From Candidatus Poribacteria bacterium (GTDB taxonomy: Bacteria > Poribacteria > WGA-4E > WGA-3G), in the NCBI GenBank assembly GCA_028824125.1, contig JAPPES010000007.1, positions 1 through 64,000 on the forward strand: a stretch of 64,000 bases of DNA, read 5' to 3'. Shown here piece by piece: positions 1,717 to 52,238 of the stretch; position 1 is the first letter of the stretch, and the number at the start of each line of letters is the position of its first letter. The translations under genes and the position numbers were made by a program. The notes under the pieces are model-generated. The model had not been told where the DNA came from. It was given only the letters and a program-made list of their open reading frames with translations, and made no database searches.

Positions 1717-3096
1717 TTACTTTTCTTTAGTGCGGATCATCGCTACGTTGAAAATAGGTCTTTCAAAAGGGTGTGCAGGACGGTTCACAATTTTGCCCAA
1801 TGCCCACAAAGCGGAGGAACTACCACCATCAAAGTTAATAGCGTGTTCGATCCCAATATCATTGAAAAAATCTGCCATTTGATAAAGAGTCATTCCCATG
1901 CTATATCCGGGTTCTCTGCCATCAATAACAATTAGAAACAGCTTCTCATCGCTAAACCCTAAAGCGCTCCGGGGATGCCGATGTGCAGCGTTGCTGTGTC
2001 TGTAAGCACTACTGTTTCTGCCTTGTGCAAAATCAATTAATTCCGGTTCAATTTCTCCATTTCGTAAAAGGCGTAAATTTCCACCGATGCCTTCCTGAAT
2101 TGTTTGCCATTTTTCAGGCGTAAGTGCAATATCCAAAATACCAGTCGTAGAGTCGGTAATTTCTCGGTACCAGCGGGGTCCCAAGCGCGGTTCTATAGCC
2201 AGAACAACCCCATCAGACGGAATAGGACTGTCTCCGCGTGGATTGACTGCGGTCACGACAAAACGACTCGTGTATTTCCCGGTGAGTGGAAGCGTCAGTT
2301 CTTTAAGAGTGAATTCATAGCATCGTCTTGTTAAAGTTGACCTTCCAAAACGAGGTGTGTAAAGCACTACCGAACACGATGAATCGCAGATTTGGTTAAT
2401 CGCGTCTATCGCAAGGGTTTCTTTGCCAATGCGAAGTTTGCCGTTTAATTGAACCGCATCTAAGCGGAATTCACCATCTGGCGTAACTCCAAAACTTGTT
2501 TCACCCCAGGGTGAAGGTGGTGAATAGCCCCATCTATCAATCAATTTGGGAATACTAATGAGTTCACCTGCTTGAATATAGAGGTTGAAAATCATGCCGC
2601 CGCGCCCATAACTGTCTCCACGAATTCCGAAACTCCCGTTTACACCCGCCAGAGGTAGTATTCCTTTTTTTCTGAGCTTTCTCGTAGCTCCTGTGACAGT
2701 TTCACGCCCGAGGATTTGGGAGTTTGCAAGTGCCACATCAAATCTAAGGTTTTTGGCATCACGGTCCATCTCTGCTACGTAAACGACAGCACCACCCACC
2801 CAAGAATAGCGGTAAAGTCGAAACCCGTCGGGCCATCGTCTTGTATCAAGGGCATCTCTGCGTCTAACAGAATTTGGCAGTGTTTCCTTTGCCTTAACCT
2901 TAATAAGTTTTGGCTGTACTTCTTTAATAGGTTTTGGCTGTGCTTCTTTCACATCAACCTGAGTGGTGGATGGCTGGAACACCTCTTTCTCAAAAACCTG
3001 TACAGCATTAATGACTAAAATGAAAAGCAGGAGAAGTCCACATATAGCAATCAACTTAGGCAGAGGGTTTCGGTAATTATTTTCTGTGTACATCAA
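1717..3096 (-). CDS. Phosphodiester glycosidase family protein (NAGPA-like)
   Basis: 459-aa exported or anchored protein. Residues about 11-30 form one hydrophobic segment (signal anchor), followed by a Lys/Pro/Glu-rich linker with repeated KPIKEVQPKLIK. The C-terminal 330 residues look like the DUF2233/phosphodiester glycosidase domain related to the mammalian uncovering enzyme: GVNGSFG early, LIVIDGREPGYSMGMTLYQMADFF, and the hallmark NFDGGGSSALW near the end. Such enzymes hydrolyse sugar-phosphodiester bonds in the envelope. It overlaps nothing and leads a two-gene unit with the lipoprotein downstream. The substrate is not deducible. Confidence 0.82.
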   Translation of the reverse strand: MMYTENNYRNPLPKLIAICGLLLLFILVINAVQVFEKEVFQPSTTQVDVKEAQPKPIKEVQPKLIKVKAKETLPNSVRRRDALDTRRWPDGFRLYRYSWVGGAVVYVAEMDRDAKNLRFDVALANSQILGRETVTGATRKLRKKGILPLAGVNGSFGIRGDSYGRGGMIFNLYIQAGELISIPKLIDRWGYSPPSPWGETSFGVTPDGEFRLDAVQLNGKLRIGKETLAIDAINQICDSSCSVVLYTPRFGRSTLTRRCYEFTLKELTLPLTGKYTSRFVVTAVNPRGDSPIPSDGVVLAIEPRLGPRWYREITDSTTGILDIALTPEKWQTIQEGIGGNLRLLRNGEIEPELIDFAQGRNSSAYRHSNAAHRHPRSALGFSDEKLFLIVIDGREPGYSMGMTLYQMADFFNDIGIEHAINFDGGSSSALWALGKIVNRPAHPFERPIFNVAMIRTKEK

Positions 3097-3347
3097 ATTT
3101 ACCTACATTCGTGTTAGTGATAGACGTCTCTTTTCCTATGACAGAGATTATGCATTCGTTCCATTTCGAAAAGTTTGTTACCATAACGCTGCGTCCCAGA
3201 ACTATTCTCAATTATAACTGATTTTTTTCTATATTGCAAAGAGTTTATTGGGTAAGTCGCGAAGCTCGGAGGGGGTTACTGGTGCTTCTCTATTCAACTG
3301 GAAATGCGTATCTATAAGGCAGTATAAGCTGTGTTTCGCTTCAAGAA

Positions 3348-3635
3348 TCATTCAGATTGTTTAGGTTGAACTATTTTGTATTTGACCTCACCAGGTTTGA
3401 CATAACCAAACCTTTTTCTGACAAGACGTTCTTTGGTTAAGGTATCATTTTTTAGCAGTTCAACACGCTGCTTGCGTTGATCGCGCTCGGTTTGCAGCTC
3501 TTGTATCTCTGCTTGATACCCTTTCTCATCGATTTGCGCTTGTTGCCAGTCTTTATAACCGCGCATGAATTGTCTAACGCTGACTATCAACAAAGCTAAT
3601 GCGATAATAAGTAGGATTGCGCGAAGAATACGCAT
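3348..3635 (-). CDS. FtsB/DivIC-like septum formation initiator
   Basis: 95-aa bitopic protein: one N-terminal membrane helix (residues about 4-21), then a coiled coil (QAEIQELQTERDQRKQRVELL) and the family-like end with EERLVRKRFGYVKPGE-type sequence (here TKERLVRKRFGYVKPGEVKY). FtsB/DivIC proteins bridge FtsL/FtsQ in the divisome. It sits 65 nt downstream of enolase on the same strand, an arrangement also seen in proteobacteria, which supports the call. Divergent from E. coli FtsB, hence no symbol. Confidence 0.78.
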   Translation of the reverse strand: MRILRAILLIIALALLIVSVRQFMRGYKDWQQAQIDEKGYQAEIQELQTERDQRKQRVELLKNDTLTKERLVRKRFGYVKPGEVKYKIVQPKQSE

Positions 3636-3700
3636 AAAGCCGACCTTTAAAAAAGAATATTTGAGGAAGCACAGACACTGTACTAATATGAAACAGGAGT

Positions 3701-5044
<1,344 letters not shown>

Positions 5045-9539: not shown

Positions 9540-10049
9540 CTATATACCCGTACCACCTATCATAGTGTGCCTATTCAGGTTCGCTGTAGCCATATCCCAC
9601 TGTGCAACGACAACCTGTCGCGGCAATTTTCCCGCCTCCCAATAATACTCCAGCACATCACGCCTCTGATATTTTTGCAGCAATGAAACAAGTGTTAGTG
9701 AAAAGCCTTCAGGGGAAATCAGAAATGAATAAAAAGGTTGGGCAATACGACTGTAACCCAGAAGTTGTGAAAGGTGTGCAAGCGTGAGTTTAGTGTTTTT
9801 ACATTCCACAAAAACTAAATCTGTTGGTTCGTTAGGATGATGCACAAATCCAACAACATCAACCTTGATATTCCACGTAACCCATTCTGAGGGGAAATTG
9901 CCTTTGTTATATGTGCTAAGGAAACGAGAGATTGACTTTTGAGAAAGTTCATAAACCTCAATATGTGCCTTTTTGAAGCGGTCCTTTAGAAAATTCTCCA
10001 ACCACTTGCAAACATCAGGGTACATATCCTTTTCAGATTTATATTTCAT
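9540..10049 (-). CDS. PD-(D/E)XK nuclease-like protein
   Basis: 169-aa protein with a restriction-nuclease-like core: an early acidic helix (EKDMYPDVCKWLENFL), Asp64 in KVDVVGF, then Glu82-x-Lys84 in FVECKN, followed by a helix with Gln (AHLSQLLGYSR), matching the D...ExK-Q pattern of the PD-(D/E)XK fold. It overlaps the 3' end of the LAGLIDADG-fold gene by 11 nt, indicating translational coupling, and is last in a cluster with a DNA methyltransferase. I infer that it is the cleavage subunit of a restriction-modification system. Alternatively it could be a Holliday-junction-type or repair nuclease. Confidence 0.65.
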   Translation of the reverse strand: MKYKSEKDMYPDVCKWLENFLKDRFKKAHIEVYELSQKSISRFLSTYNKGNFPSEWVTWNIKVDVVGFVHHPNEPTDLVFVECKNTKLTLAHLSQLLGYSRIAQPFYSFLISPEGFSLTLVSLLQKYQRRDVLEYYWEAGKLPRQVVVAQWDMATANLNRHTMIGGTGI

Positions 10050-10995
10050 TCTCTACTGATTCCTCTGATGCATTCTGCATGTAACGCTGCCAATCTTTTT
10101 GCTGGAGAATTTTTGAGGTGCGCGGACATCCAAGTTTTTTACAAATTTGCCAGTACGCATTGAAATGTTTTCCATTTAACCGCTCATCAAGTTTTTCGGA
10201 AATTTCTCTTTTATCCTTTGGCTTTCGTTTTCTTAACTTCCTTCTTCCAGGGCAGGGCTTATAAGTCTTCTGAGGATAATTTCCCCTGTCCTGTTTAATA
10301 AATTCTTCCAAGATAGCTTGCTTGTGCGGCAATGAAAAACCTATATTCTCAAAAGGCACAGCAAAAATATTGATTTGATGTTCACGAAAATCCCGCCCCA
10401 GATTGGGATGTCCCCAAGTGATTAACTGGACAGGGATCGTTAAATGCTCCTCCAGAAGGGTACAAAGTTGAACCGGCATATTCCAATTTGTAGGGTAGTT
10501 TAATACATCAAGTCGGACTCGGTTTGTATCATCTATGTAACGATTGGCCCGTCGGACATTTCCAGCAACATCGGCAAAACCTCTGAGATATTCTCGCTTC
10601 CAGTCGTTAGGGACAGCTGAAGAAAAAAATATCTCTGGGACTCTAAAATATTCATATCCTGTCTGTTCCTGTGTATGCATCAAAATATTTCTCCACACCA
10701 TCGTATTTCTAAGAAAACGCAACACAAGTGTAACACTATTCTCACCACTAGCAATACTGACATCCGCCCCAGTTAACTCCAAAATCCGTTCCTGTATCTG
10801 TTGCAAACCGAGTCGGATTGATGTGTTAGTATCAAAAGTTCCAGAAACCCCATCAACTTTAAGAGATTGATATGGAAATTCAATAATAATTTGCTTTACA
10901 CTACCACTTTCCGAGATTTTACCTCGTGCCGTAATCAGGCCTAACAAATAGGCAACATCTGCATCAATGTAGTCTACTACCTCAATTAAACTCAT
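10039..10995 (-). CDS. LAGLIDADG-fold protein with degenerate active sites
   Basis: 318 aa. Two LAGLIDADG-like helices are visible: LLGLITARG (residues 17-25) and LRGFADVAG (137-145), about 120 residues apart as in monomeric two-repeat enzymes. In both, the residue that normally coordinates metal (penultimate Asp/Glu) is replaced, by Arg24 and Ala144. The second repeat has the usual continuation (NVRRANRYI...RVRLDVLN). The C-terminal 90 residues are very basic (RRKLRKRKPKDKRE). It lies 16 nt after a DNA methyltransferase and overlaps a PD-(D/E)XK-like gene. I infer a DNA-recognition rather than cutting role; a homing-endonuclease relic is the alternative. Confidence 0.6.
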   Translation of the reverse strand: MSLIEVVDYIDADVAYLLGLITARGKISESGSVKQIIIEFPYQSLKVDGVSGTFDTNTSIRLGLQQIQERILELTGADVSIASGENSVTLVLRFLRNTMVWRNILMHTQEQTGYEYFRVPEIFFSSAVPNDWKREYLRGFADVAGNVRRANRYIDDTNRVRLDVLNYPTNWNMPVQLCTLLEEHLTIPVQLITWGHPNLGRDFREHQINIFAVPFENIGFSLPHKQAILEEFIKQDRGNYPQKTYKPCPGRRKLRKRKPKDKREISEKLDERLNGKHFNAYWQICKKLGCPRTSKILQQKDWQRYMQNASEESVENEI

Positions 10996-11011
10996 TTTAT
11001 ATGTCCGATTC

Positions 11012-11869
11012 CTACAAGGCTGTAGATGCCTCTGCTGGTTTTTGGAAAATCAAGATAAATTCATGGATTTTATTAACCCTGAAAACACTTGGATATCCTA
11101 ACGGCCGTAAATTATTATATTCTTGTGCTCGGTCCCATATAATAGTATCGTCAAAAATAAAACCAATATCCGTCATTAATTGAGAAATGTCAATATGATA
11201 AGGATAAAAACGATTCTTTTTTCGCAAATCCATCACAATAACGCAGCAATAACTTTTGGGCTTCATTACGCCATAAACTTGCTCAAAAATTTTGCGAAGT
11301 TCTAACAAGAATTTCTCATAGTCTCGTATTTTTCCCAAATCTGCCTCTGTATCTCCATAATCCCGCTGCTGTTTATTATCTGCAGTTCTCTTCTGTAGTA
11401 GAATATCCCAATACGGTGGTGATGTTACTACCATATCCACGCTGTTTGGGGAAACATATTGGTAAAGTTCTCGGCTATCGGCAGCATGAATTTTTGTCTC
11501 AGTTTCCTCTCCAAATAGAGACATTTGACTTAGACGTCCTTCAGTGATTTGTACGAATTCCGGGGAAATCTCTAATCCAATAGCGTTTTTTCCTTTCTCC
11601 CTTGCAGCGAGCAATGTAGAACCAACACCCGCGAACGGATCAAGTACTAAGGAGACTCCGGAGTATGTAAAGCATTCAATAAGACGACGTGCTAATGCAA
11701 TGGGAAACATTGCTGGATGTTTTAGATCAGTTTCTTCTTTTGTTTTTCTAATGTCACTCCATACTGACACTGAATATCGTAACCATGTTTTACCATCAAG
11801 TTCATTGGCACGCTTTCGTAGGTTGCCTTCCTTTTTTATATCATTAGGTTCCTGTCTTACTTGAGACAT
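11012..11869 (-). CDS. Site-specific DNA methyltransferase (amino-MTase, TSPPY type)
   Basis: 285 aa. AdoMet motif I is DPFAGVGST (residues 77-85) and the catalytic motif IV is TSPPYWD (149-155), typical of N4-cytosine or N6-adenine methyltransferases. Motif I precedes motif IV here, the reverse of the common beta-class order. The segment HPAMFPIALARRLI before motif I matches motif X. There is little room for a separate target-recognition domain, so specificity may come from a partner. It follows the HEAT gene by 17 nt and precedes the LAGLIDADG-fold gene by 16 nt, so this is one operon. Confidence 0.88.
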   Translation of the reverse strand: MSQVRQEPNDIKKEGNLRKRANELDGKTWLRYSVSVWSDIRKTKEETDLKHPAMFPIALARRLIECFTYSGVSLVLDPFAGVGSTLLAAREKGKNAIGLEISPEFVQITEGRLSQMSLFGEETETKIHAADSRELYQYVSPNSVDMVVTSPPYWDILLQKRTADNKQQRDYGDTEADLGKIRDYEKFLLELRKIFEQVYGVMKPKSYCCVIVMDLRKKNRFYPYHIDISQLMTDIGFIFDDTIIWDRAQEYNNLRPLGYPSVFRVNKIHEFILIFQKPAEASTAL

Positions 11870-11886
11870 GATTTTCTCCTTTTCTA

Positions 11887-12492
11887 CTATAACGTTCTGA
11901 GTGCTTCCTGTGCTTCTGGCGTTCCAATTTTATCTAATGCAAAAGCCACATGGTGTTTAACACGTTCTGATTCATCTTCAAGTGCCTTGATAAGAGCAGG
12001 TACCGCATCCGCTGCTGCTGTCTCCATTCTGGCAAGCGCATAAGCAGCATAAGCACGAATCTCATCCGCGGGGTCGGTCAAAGCTTGAATAAGAGCCGGT
12101 ATTGCGCTAATTGCCGTGACTCCCATCCCGCTGAGTGCTCGAGCTGCATATTCGCGGAACTCTTCATTTAGTTTGTTAGATAATGCTTTAACCAAAGCTG
12201 GTATTGCCGGTTCACCAATATACGTTAGCGTACTGCTGATAGCGAGTCCATGATGGCTCTCAGCTATCTCCATCTCATCAATAAGTTGTGGTATAGCAGG
12301 TTCACCGATGGCTGCCAAGACTTCAATAGTTTGATTAACAACATCCCCAAGATTATGCGCCAATGCTTCAACGAGTTGTGGGACAGCAGGCTCACCGATT
12401 GTAATTAATTCAGTCTTTGCAGCATCAAGCACGTCATCGTCAAACGCCTCTAAATCTTCTATCAAATCTGCGATACGTTGTTCATCACTCAT
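11887..12492 (-). CDS. HEAT-repeat protein
   Basis: 201 aa made of about six HEAT/PBS-lyase-like repeats with the recurring pattern GEPA(V/I)PxLVxAL and AIPALIQAL, an alpha solenoid for protein interaction. No signal peptide or catalytic residues are seen. It sits 17 nt upstream of the methyltransferase and may belong to the restriction-modification-like operon, or be the last gene of the cytochrome c maturation operon, from which it is separated by only 64 nt. HEAT proteins of this type are common in this kind of genome, so the link is tentative. Confidence 0.85.
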   Translation of the reverse strand: MSDEQRIADLIEDLEAFDDDVLDAAKTELITIGEPAVPQLVEALAHNLGDVVNQTIEVLAAIGEPAIPQLIDEMEIAESHHGLAISSTLTYIGEPAIPALVKALSNKLNEEFREYAARALSGMGVTAISAIPALIQALTDPADEIRAYAAYALARMETAAADAVPALIKALEDESERVKHHVAFALDKIGTPEAQEALRTL

Positions 12493-50621: not shown

Positions 50622-52238
50622 TTATGCGATTTGATAAATGCCATAGGGGAGTTGGCAGAAGGTAATACCCATCGGTGTAAGTTCTTTTTGACTCATAAAT
50701 TTATGAGACGCATAGACGTAGGCTTTTTTGCCTGCCGCTTTACATTCCTTGGCTATCTGCTCAGCGCGTTTTGCATCTAAAGCGGACTCGTTGCTCTCTA
50801 AAAATTCAAGTGTCGGTTCATAGATGAGATAAAACCGGATATCCTTTGTTTCACCGAAGCAGTAATTTTTCTGTTTTGCTTTGACCTCCAATTTACTGCC
50901 AGTAGCAGTATAAGCAACATAGTTTGCTAAGGTTTGATATGTAGGAAGTGAATCACCCGTAAGCATTCCCTCAGTGTCAATCGTTTCACCGAGCGTGCAG
51001 TAAGTAAAAGAACCGCCAAGTCCTTTCTGCAAGTTTTCATCTTTGGCATTTTCAACGCCATCTATGACGCGGCGGGCGCGTTCGGCAGTGATGTTATCAG
51101 TGTAATCTTCACATTCAACGAGGATAAACTTTCGGTTACCGCCATCCGCTTTGTTGAGCGCGAGAACAGCATGGGCAGTGGTACCGCTGCCAGCGAAGGA
51201 ATCAAGGATGATGTCGTTTTTATTTGTAGATACTCTGATTATTTTTGCAATTAAATCTGTTGGTTTTGGAGTTGGAAAGAGTTGACCACGTCCAAAAATG
51301 TTAATAAGCTCTTTCGTTCCATCGGTAGCAGTTCCTACATCACTCCATATTGTGAAGATATTGACTCCTTTTTCACGGGCTTCGCTGAGAAACCTTTTAT
51401 ACTGCGGCTTAGAAGTTCCTCTTTTACCAAAGACAATTCGTTTTTCTTTTAGTGCGGCTTCGTACTTATCTTTAGAAAATCTCCAATGTCTACCTGCTGG
51501 AGGAAGATAGACTTTACCAGTGTTGGGGTTGCTAATTTCGTACGTCAAATTTTTCCTGATGTGAGGTGCGTCCATTGGATCTGCCGCCCACGGACCACGA
51601 GGGTCTTTATCGGGATTCGAGAATTTACTTTCATCAACATCTCCTGCGTTAAAAGAAAATGCAGACTTTTCAAGGGCATAGCAAAGTATGTGATTATGAG
51701 AAAGTGAAACATCTATGTCGTTTTGACTTGATTTTCTGTGATGCCACACAATATTAGCAACAAAGTTACTTACTCCAAAAATCTCGTCCATCAACATTCG
51801 CAAGTGATGCACTTCATGATCATCAATTGAGATAAAAAGGATGCCATCATCGGATAGCAACTCACGCAAAAGATGTAACCGAGGCCACATCATACACAAC
51901 CACTTATCATGTCGTTCTAAATCTTCAACGTCAATAGGGCTATTTTTCTCAAGCCACGCTTGCATCATGGGACTGTTCACATTGTCGTTGTAAACCCAAT
52001 TTTCGTTGCCGGTATTGTAAGGCGGGTCAATATAGATACACTTGATTTTGCCAGCGTATTTCGGGAGGAGGGCTTTTAAGGCGTGTAGGTTGTCGCCGTG
52101 AATGATGAGGTTATCGTCTAATGATGGAAGGTTTTCGCTTGTATGGGATTTGTCTTTATCTATTTCAAGGGTGCGGAAGGGGACGGTGAGGTGGTGTGCG
52201 TATATGAATTGTTTGCCTTTGAAGTCAAGTGTAGGCAT
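50622..52238 (-). CDS. Type III restriction-modification methyltransferase (Mod)
   Basis: 538 aa, beta-class N6-adenine methyltransferase: DPPYNTG (DPPY at 71-74) precedes the AdoMet motif FAGSGTT (348-354). SIDDHEVHHLRMLMDEIFG and WRFSKDKYEAALKE lie between and probably form the target-recognition region. The C-terminal 190 residues (VECEDYTDNITAERARRV and beyond) are typical of Mod subunits. Mod sets the recognition site for both methylation and Res cutting. Overlapping nothing, it begins 22 nt after the TIR-like gene. Confidence 0.93.
   Translation of the reverse strand: MPTLDFKGKQFIYAHHLTVPFRTLEIDKDKSHTSENLPSLDDNLIIHGDNLHALKALLPKYAGKIKCIYIDPPYNTGNENWVYNDNVNSPMMQAWLEKNSPIDVEDLERHDKWLCMMWPRLHLLRELLSDDGILFISIDDHEVHHLRMLMDEIFGVSNFVANIVWHHRKSSQNDIDVSLSHNHILCYALEKSAFSFNAGDVDESKFSNPDKDPRGPWAADPMDAPHIRKNLTYEISNPNTGKVYLPPAGRHWRFSKDKYEAALKEKRIVFGKRGTSKPQYKRFLSEAREKGVNIFTIWSDVGTATDGTKELINIFGRGQLFPTPKPTDLIAKIIRVSTNKNDIILDSFAGSGTTAHAVLALNKADGGNRKFILVECEDYTDNITAERARRVIDGVENAKDENLQKGLGGSFTYCTLGETIDTEGMLTGDSLPTYQTLANYVAYTATGSKLEVKAKQKNYCFGETKDIRFYLIYEPTLEFLESNESALDAKRAEQIAKECKAAGKKAYVYASHKFMSQKELTPMGITFCQLPYGIYQIA

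Follow-up and report, generated by a model that had tools for sequence, protein, structure and literature searches.

The LAG-PD locus

The stretch of DNA analysed here, referred to as the window, comprises the 64,000 nucleotides (nt) at positions 1 to 64,000 of contig JAPPES010000007.1 (assembly GCA_028824125.1), part of a 5.59 Mb metagenome-assembled genome of a Candidatus Poribacteria bacterium; this genome carries the number G000 among the genomes (G) and loci (L) compared below. Between positions 9,540 and 12,492 lie four genes on the minus strand, transcribed in the order HEAT, MT, LAG and PD and spaced by 17, 16 and -11 nt, an arrangement that coordinates and translations bear out just as an initial annotation of the sequence had given it. 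That annotation read the four genes as one restriction-modification-like operon, in which a LAGLIDADG-fold protein lacking both catalytic acids recognizes DNA and a small PD-(D/E)XK-like protein cuts it. The evidence assembled here suggests that MT, LAG and PD probably constitute a Type II-like restriction-modification system with a two-subunit restriction enzyme, LAG reading the DNA and PD cutting it. By Pfam, none of the three proteins contains an ATPase or helicase domain. Protein lengths below are in amino acids (aa).

10039..10995, minus strand: LAG, a degenerate LAGLIDADG-fold protein of 318 aa, the proposed DNA-reading subunit (AlphaFold2 and Foldseek)
10921..10947, minus strand: end of LAG helix 1, LLGLITARG, residues 17-25, in which R24 replaces the acid (translation, alignment)
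10561..10587, minus strand: end of LAG helix 2, LRGFADVAG, residues 137-145, in which A144 replaces the acid (translation, alignment)
9540..10049, minus strand: PD, a PD-(D/E)XK-type protein of 169 aa, the proposed cleavage subunit (AlphaFold2, conserved residues)
9858..9860, minus strand: codon of PD Asp64 (translation, alignment)
9798..9806, minus strand: codons of PD Glu82-Cys83-Lys84, the ExK element (translation, alignment)
11012..11869, minus strand: MT, a DNA amino-methyltransferase of 285 aa (PF01555, PADLOC MTase_II, motifs)
11627..11641, minus strand: core of MT motif I, DPFAG, residues 77-81 (from the translation)
11411..11425, minus strand: MT motif IV, TSPPY, residues 149-153 (from the translation)
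11887-12492, minus strand: HEAT gene (open reading frame and translation)

Predicted structure of LAG and loss of the metal-binding acids

The window LAG matches no Pfam, NCBIfam or PADLOC family at E <= 1, the WhiA family (Pfam, NCBIfam) included, and a sequence search of the PDB gives no useful match, the best (E 0.031) being a ribosomal protein. Members of the LAG and PD families match PHROGs at E 0.035 or worse only. Among relatives, NCBIfam returns a weak colicin_Z match for the LAG of L018 (E 0.0065, far under the cut-off), and PADLOC returns a PtuA match in one member (E 7e-4) and a match of PD to PDC-M13B (E 0.035); these, like the weak PHROGs matches, are taken as chance. Because no sequence family matches LAG, its assignment rests on the motif and on a structure model. 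The AlphaFold2 model, a single chain built on an alignment of 10 sequences (predicted local distance difference test score, pLDDT, 78.9; predicted template modelling score, pTM, 0.83), orders its helices and strands as two alpha-beta-beta-alpha-beta-beta-alpha repeats with LAGLIDADG helices. Foldseek finds 65 PDB matches to it at E <= 0.001, and the best 50 of the 65 are all LAGLIDADG proteins, headed by the bI3 maturase (E 1.1e-7); those listed include I-AniI, I-DmoI, I-OnuI, VMA inteins and WhiA (3hyi, 3hyj), with template modelling (TM) scores of up to 0.66, by target length, for I-DmoI and up to 0.62 for WhiA. Among the 50 matches listed from the predicted viral proteins of BFVD, several are labelled as homing endonuclease, LAGLIDADG or intein; terminases, polymerases and reductases account for many of the rest, and some are nameless; the large viral proteins are taken to carry inteins. 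In the model LAG thus has the LAGLIDADG fold that had been proposed from its motifs.

The acid required of homing endonucleases at the end of each LAGLIDADG helix is absent from LAG. In the window the two positions hold R24 and A144, as originally reported, and in the alignment as a whole R or N and A or T, with no acid in any of 12 sequences; the positions were assigned from the motif and the helix ends of the model, not from a residue-level structural alignment. The first motif of the window LAG has no acid at all. All eight full-length Poribacterial LAGs have R24 and A144. The alignment (A1) leaves out L019, whose accessions are those of L018, and L028, found later, whose two motifs read GNG and VTG. 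D142, the sixth motif residue of helix 2, is invariant in the 12 aligned sequences; in LAGLIDADG structures this residue is not the metal position. Also invariant is a cluster formed by H196-P197-N198 and E205-H206-Q207, at or beside strands 189-193 and 205-211 of the second repeat, and conservation is concentrated in this repeat generally (26 of 110 positions invariant, versus 6 of 99 in the first; Fisher P 4e-4). The conserved second repeat may face a constant half of the target or form the side on which PD docks.

PD, a putative nuclease subunit

The AlphaFold2 model of PD, again a single chain (pLDDT 86.8, pTM 0.87), has the strand-helix layout of PD-(D/E)XK proteins, with D64 just before strand 65-70 and E82 and K84 at the end of strand 77-83. 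This layout agrees with the fold first proposed, and MspJI and BstEII head the PDB ranking, but the matches themselves are weak: MspJI at E 1.3e-3 (TM 0.38-0.43 by query length), BstEII at 0.011, RNA polymerase chains (6exv_E and others) at 0.014-0.020 and BamHI at 0.033. Pfam places none of 11 members in a family above threshold (YhcG_C matches 3 of the 11 weakly, at E 0.019 or worse), and there is no useful PDB match by sequence. The triad D64-E82-K84 first noticed in the window is identical in all 11 aligned sequences, as are Q95 and Y99. The alignment (A2) leaves out L019, L028 and L017, the last with the in-frame stop of the PD of G080 (alignment A4 is likewise without L017); the PD of L028 has the D and the ExK. 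Across members the chain measures 158-174 aa. Conservation and the position of the three residues in the model make D64, E82 and K84 the putative cleavage site of PD.

Recurrence in plasmids, phages and viral contigs

Searches outside Poribacteria covered plasmid, phage and viral sets, with bacterial genomes searched without a profile, so the range of the family given here is a lower bound. By tblastn LAG was found in 2 of 72,556 plasmids, both from Lactiplantibacillus plantarum (L018 and L019, with the same three protein accessions; plasmid NZ_CP060181 carries this version), and in 2 of 50,697 phages, both gut phages, the plasmid and phage LAGs being 28-30% identical to the window LAG. Viral contigs L022-L024 were found with a phage LAG as query and L028 through its PD; the window LAG alone as query has no match in the viral contigs, and the L028 LAG retrieves only its own contig. 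A scan of genome contigs with a single window protein returned five loci, all Poribacterial (G033, G063, G062, G037 and G080), which are counted once in the genome tallies.

The eight non-Poribacterial records, L018-L024 and L028, come from Lactiplantibacillus plasmids, gut phages and viral contigs. In every one of them PD comes directly after LAG, the two genes sharing 4-11 nt, and methyltransferase genes lie upstream of LAG. Where the records are annotated, in four cases, LAG and PD are each called 'hypothetical protein'. Co-occurrence, proposed at the outset as a check on the system, is therefore found: LAG and PD stand behind methyltransferases in unrelated hosts, with D/E/K intact and the LAGLIDADG acids absent. 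This recurrence in distant hosts suggests that an enzyme that once cut genes now serves a restriction enzyme purely by reading DNA. One of the eight records, L028, also has a NOV_C-domain protein (PF13020) at 2868-3944, between the methyltransferases and LAG.

Exchange of the methyltransferases

MT belongs to the N6_N4_Mtase family (PF01555, E 9.7e-35; PADLOC MTase_II, E 3.7e-49), in agreement with its initial description as an amino-methyltransferase, and its motif I precedes motif IV, TSPPY, with little room for a target-recognition domain. A serine before PPY is typical of N4-cytosine methyltransferases. Its PDB relatives are a putative modification methylase (2zie, E 9.9e-31), then cytosine-N4 enzymes (8s9m/8s9n), then adenine enzymes such as CcrM. 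A second N6_N4-type methylase, an open reading frame of 538 aa and one of several such enzymes in G000, lies elsewhere in the window at 50622-52238 on the minus strand.

Two methyltransferase genes or domains are present in all eight non-Poribacterial records, and the window locus has one. Families were assigned by Pfam for L018, L022 and L024, by similar open reading frames for L023 and by BLAST for the others. In L018-L021 an EcoRI_methylase and a C5 methylase form one chain of 700-708 aa, with these positions:

L018, 2180-4282: fused EcoRI-type adenine/C5-cytosine methylase
L020, 622-2748: fused EcoRI-type adenine/C5-cytosine methylase
L021, 609-2717: fused EcoRI-type adenine/C5-cytosine methylase

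The same two enzymes are separate genes in L024 and L028, and L022 and L023 instead pair an Eco57I/N6_Mtase enzyme (469 aa in L022) with a 255-aa N6_N4_Mtase, to which the window MT is 46% identical. Each two-part locus thus combines one adenine-type family with one C5 or TSPPY type, the latter usually N4-cytosine. Judged from these families, the methyltransferases beside LAG-PD are exchangeable.

Distribution and selection in Poribacteria

Within 84 Poribacteria genomes LAG occurs in 12, full length or nearly so in 8 of them; MT (E <= 1e-40) in 16, of which 12 are at >= 79% identity; and PD in 26. The gene downstream of PD, presumably a 2-oxoacid oxidoreductase-like gene and labelled por, served as anchor; the gene upstream of the four is likewise labelled ccm on presumption. 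por is present in 68 of the 84 genomes, and the regions of 60 were compared, eight anchored genomes (G014, G017, G019-G023, G049) standing outside the comparison. A HEAT homologue is found in 58 of the 60 regions, the other two (G046 and G054) being contig ends. Among these 58, eight hold whole-length MT, LAG and PD (G000, G033, G037, G048, G062, G063, G080, G081; the LAG of G033 is 5 residues short at its end), one, G050, holds MT and LAG as far as the contig reaches, three hold MT with broken LAG and PD (G042, G045, G061), six hold only a nearly full-length PD (G038, G040, G041, G047, G056, G074), nine hold only a broken or partial PD (G029, G035, G053, G064, G066, G068, G071, G075, G076), and in 31 the region carries no trace of MT, LAG or PD.

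No full-length LAG without MT occurs in the 84 genomes, and MT is present in all nine that hold more than half of LAG. MT homologues are also found in G065 (61% identity) and G011 (55%), neither of which has a LAG match. In G065 (L088, 3087-4728) the homologue, 59-61% identical to the window MT, overlaps a gene of 204 aa whose PDF...EYK pattern may mark another PD-(D/E)XK partner without LAG; an IS1595-type transposase adjoins. In restriction systems a methyltransferase usually outlives broken nuclease genes, and the survival of MT beside broken LAG and PD in G042, G045 and G061 fits this order of decay.

Median pairwise ratios of nonsynonymous to synonymous substitution rates (dN/dS) for the seven intact loci are 0.080 for MT, 0.098 for LAG, 0.087 for PD, 0.163 for HEAT and 0.066 for por, the values being rough (12 to 18 of the 21 pairs contribute, with a median dS of 0.95-1.52). 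MT, LAG and PD are under purifying selection in Poribacteria. Since the order of the genes recurs across phyla and selection maintains them, the association of methyltransferase, LAG and PD goes beyond chance. Mapped on the por tree, the locus states require 22 changes, against a mean of 22.7 after shuffling, and 68 of 200 shuffles gave as few; the contig pieces G050b and G053b and the cut region of G054 were labelled 'none' in this tree, and G046 and G047 were omitted for their short por. Such scattered states fit repeated loss and recombination alike.

The HEAT gene and genomes with PD only

The operon as originally drawn holds for MT, LAG and PD but not for HEAT, which was considered as a fourth component and rejected. 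In all 56 genomes that have HEAT and por on one stretch HEAT lies upstream of por, and 45 of these have no MT, so HEAT is a resident gene beside which the system sits. The distance from HEAT to por is below 2.5 kb in 44 of the 45 genomes without MT, and 6.1 kb in the other, G031. In three loci the resident gene is preceded by another, shorter HEAT gene of 131 aa (L014, 3144-3539; L015, 3144-3539; L017, 3146-3541).

The six genomes with PD only (L081-L086, in G038, G041, G040, G056, G047 and G074, respectively) carry it in the HEAT-por interval and have no LAG match and no MT homologue at E <= 1e-40. All six keep D64, E82 and K84. Their median dN/dS is 0.106 (15 pairs), and the four closest pairs (G038-G041, G047-G056, G047-G074, G056-G074) give 0.13-0.31. 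Their N-terminus is a new one, common to all six and similar by eye to the beginning of MT, which suggests that the PD-only form may have arisen by in-frame deletion. In the PD tree, poorly resolved with 2 of 14 inner branches starred, it may have arisen once or more than once.

A proposed reader and cutter, and its alternatives

Of the mechanisms considered, the one put forward in the initial annotation is best supported. LAG, a single-chain protein of two repeats without the metal acids, would bind the target DNA without cutting it; PD, translated from the overlapping gene, would dock on LAG and cut through the D64/E82/K84 site; and one or more methyltransferases would mark and protect host DNA. 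DNA reading by LAG, formation of a LAG-PD complex and cleavage by PD are all inferred steps. The target is expected to be asymmetric, because LAG joins two repeats in a single chain and because two methyltransferases are found in the Bacillota and viral loci.

Several findings weigh against this proposal. The fold matches of PD are weak, none reaching E <= 0.001, and RNA polymerase chains outrank BamHI among them. In G080 the reading frame of PD is interrupted by a stop codon, those of LAG and MT being open. The single local methyltransferase of Poribacteria is hard to reconcile with an asymmetric target that needs protection on both strands, and the 469-aa adenine methyltransferase of L022 finds in G000 no more than one partial match (residues 20-130, 36%), outside the locus. 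Since G000 has 32 stretches matching PF01555, two of them within MT, a different kind of partner acting in trans is possible there. Finally, the six PD-only genomes, with intact D/E/K and low dN/dS, suggest that PD has some use without LAG. This persistence cuts both ways. A nuclease retained without its methyltransferase ought to do no damage on its own, as expected if LAG supplies the aim; the role of PD without LAG is left unexplained by the simple model.

Among the alternatives, LAG might be a regulator of PD or MT, in the manner of WhiA or a C protein, with PD alone reading and cutting DNA as a small Type II enzyme. The WhiA structures among the PDB matches of LAG are in keeping with such a role, and a PD that persists without LAG may be self-sufficient. 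PD, however, is short enough to leave little room for target recognition of its own, and the LAG-PD overlap seen in all eight non-Poribacterial records would be commoner between subunits than between a regulator and its target. A self-sufficient nuclease lacking its methyltransferase would also probably be toxic to its host, whereas 6 of the 84 genomes keep a nearly full-length PD with no MT homologue at E <= 1e-40, a point tempered by the chance that an unrelated methyltransferase could protect them. On balance a regulatory LAG is unlikely.

Slightly less probable again is that LAG serves, like the HsdS of Type I systems, as a specificity subunit common to the methyltransferase and the nuclease and directs both. 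The shortness of MT and its presence wherever more than half of LAG is found would suit this arrangement. It is at odds with the three genomes in which MT is open without an intact LAG and with the MT homologues of LAG-less G065 and G011, and it would oblige unrelated methyltransferase families all to dock on the same LAG.

Two further explanations are very improbable: that LAG itself cuts as a homing or restriction endonuclease, working through D142 or another site with PD as an accessory, for which the invariance of D142 and of the H196-P197-N198/E205-H206-Q207 cluster would speak, whereas neither motif has an acid at position 8 in the aligned LAGs and the triad is intact in all aligned PDs; and that LAG-PD is a modification-dependent, Type IV-like nuclease standing beside methyltransferases by chance, a reading prompted by the match of PD to MspJI, itself modification-dependent, whereas that match is weak and concerns the nuclease fold only, methyltransferases lie upstream in all eight non-Poribacterial records and in every Poribacterial locus with a full-length LAG, and active methyltransferases nearby would tend to turn a Type IV enzyme against its own host.

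If LAG is indeed the reader, as the two-subunit model has it, restriction enzymes and homing endonucleases are joined in one machine, a selfish cutter has been recruited for defence, and nature offers a two-part nuclease on a well-understood fold; the exchange of methyltransferases around a constant LAG-PD would also make the matching of modification and restriction specificities testable. A bolder extension, conceivable but doubtful at present, is that the homing-endonuclease fold became a pure reader whose DNA word stayed largely fixed while the guarding methyltransferases were swapped for unrelated enzymes (EcoRI-type with C5, or Eco57I-type with TSPPY-type); the conserved second repeat would then read the half-word common to all members or hold PD. 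LAG-PD would in that case be a natural detachable reader plus cutter, built on a fold with well-characterized DNA specificity.

Comparison with known systems

Known restriction enzymes combine a handful of catalytic folds with a scatter of recognition domains. The LAGLIDADG homing endonucleases I-DmoI, I-AniI and I-OnuI and the bI3 maturase have the fold and the two-helix motif in common with LAG; they differ in that LAG lacks both metal acids and that its gene belongs to an operon of restriction type and not to an intron or intein. A different link, LAGLIDADG-type insertions within methylase genes of phages, has reportedly been seen. WhiA, described as a DNA-binding regulator related to homing endonucleases that controls sporulation and cell-division genes, also has the LAGLIDADG fold, and LAG has no match to its family. 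On the side of the cutter, PD-(D/E)XK restriction nucleases have D...ExK followed by Q and Y on the next helix, as PD does; PD differs as a standalone chain with no evident recognition domain.

The word LAGLIDADG is absent from the main text of a 2014 review of Type II enzymes (PMC4081073) and of a 2025 review of restriction (PMC12707154). No title or abstract among the literature matches listed describes a restriction enzyme with a LAGLIDADG subunit; that search did not extend to REBASE, preprints or subscription journals, and priority is to that extent unproven. Within that scope, the reader fold of this probable two-subunit Type II-like system has no published precedent.

Two-subunit Type II enzymes described in the 2014 review include BspD6I/BstNBI, BsrDI, BtsI and BbvCI, together with BslI, an alpha2:beta2 tetramer; in these systems an asymmetric site is served by two methyltransferases, either fused or as separate proteins, and the Type IIT enzymes among them have two different catalytic sites (PMC4081073). 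LAG-PD resembles Type IIT enzymes in its two proposed subunits; two methyltransferases accompany it in the Bacillota and viral loci, one at the window locus. It differs from them in that only PD keeps catalytic residues, the larger LAG having lost its own and being of another fold. The closest functional precedent is LlaJI, a plasmid-borne system of Lactococcus lactis with two methyltransferases and an asymmetric target, in which R1, the DNA-binding protein, shows no sign of a catalytic centre and R2 is a PD-(D/E)XK protein (PMC1459862). R1.LlaJI is a McrB-related GTPase that reads DNA through a B3 domain (PMC12707154), whereas LAG has a predicted LAGLIDADG fold and no detected GTPase or B3 domain; the division of labour proposed for LAG and PD, a separate reader paired with a PD-(D/E)XK cutter, is nonetheless the one that LlaJI displays.

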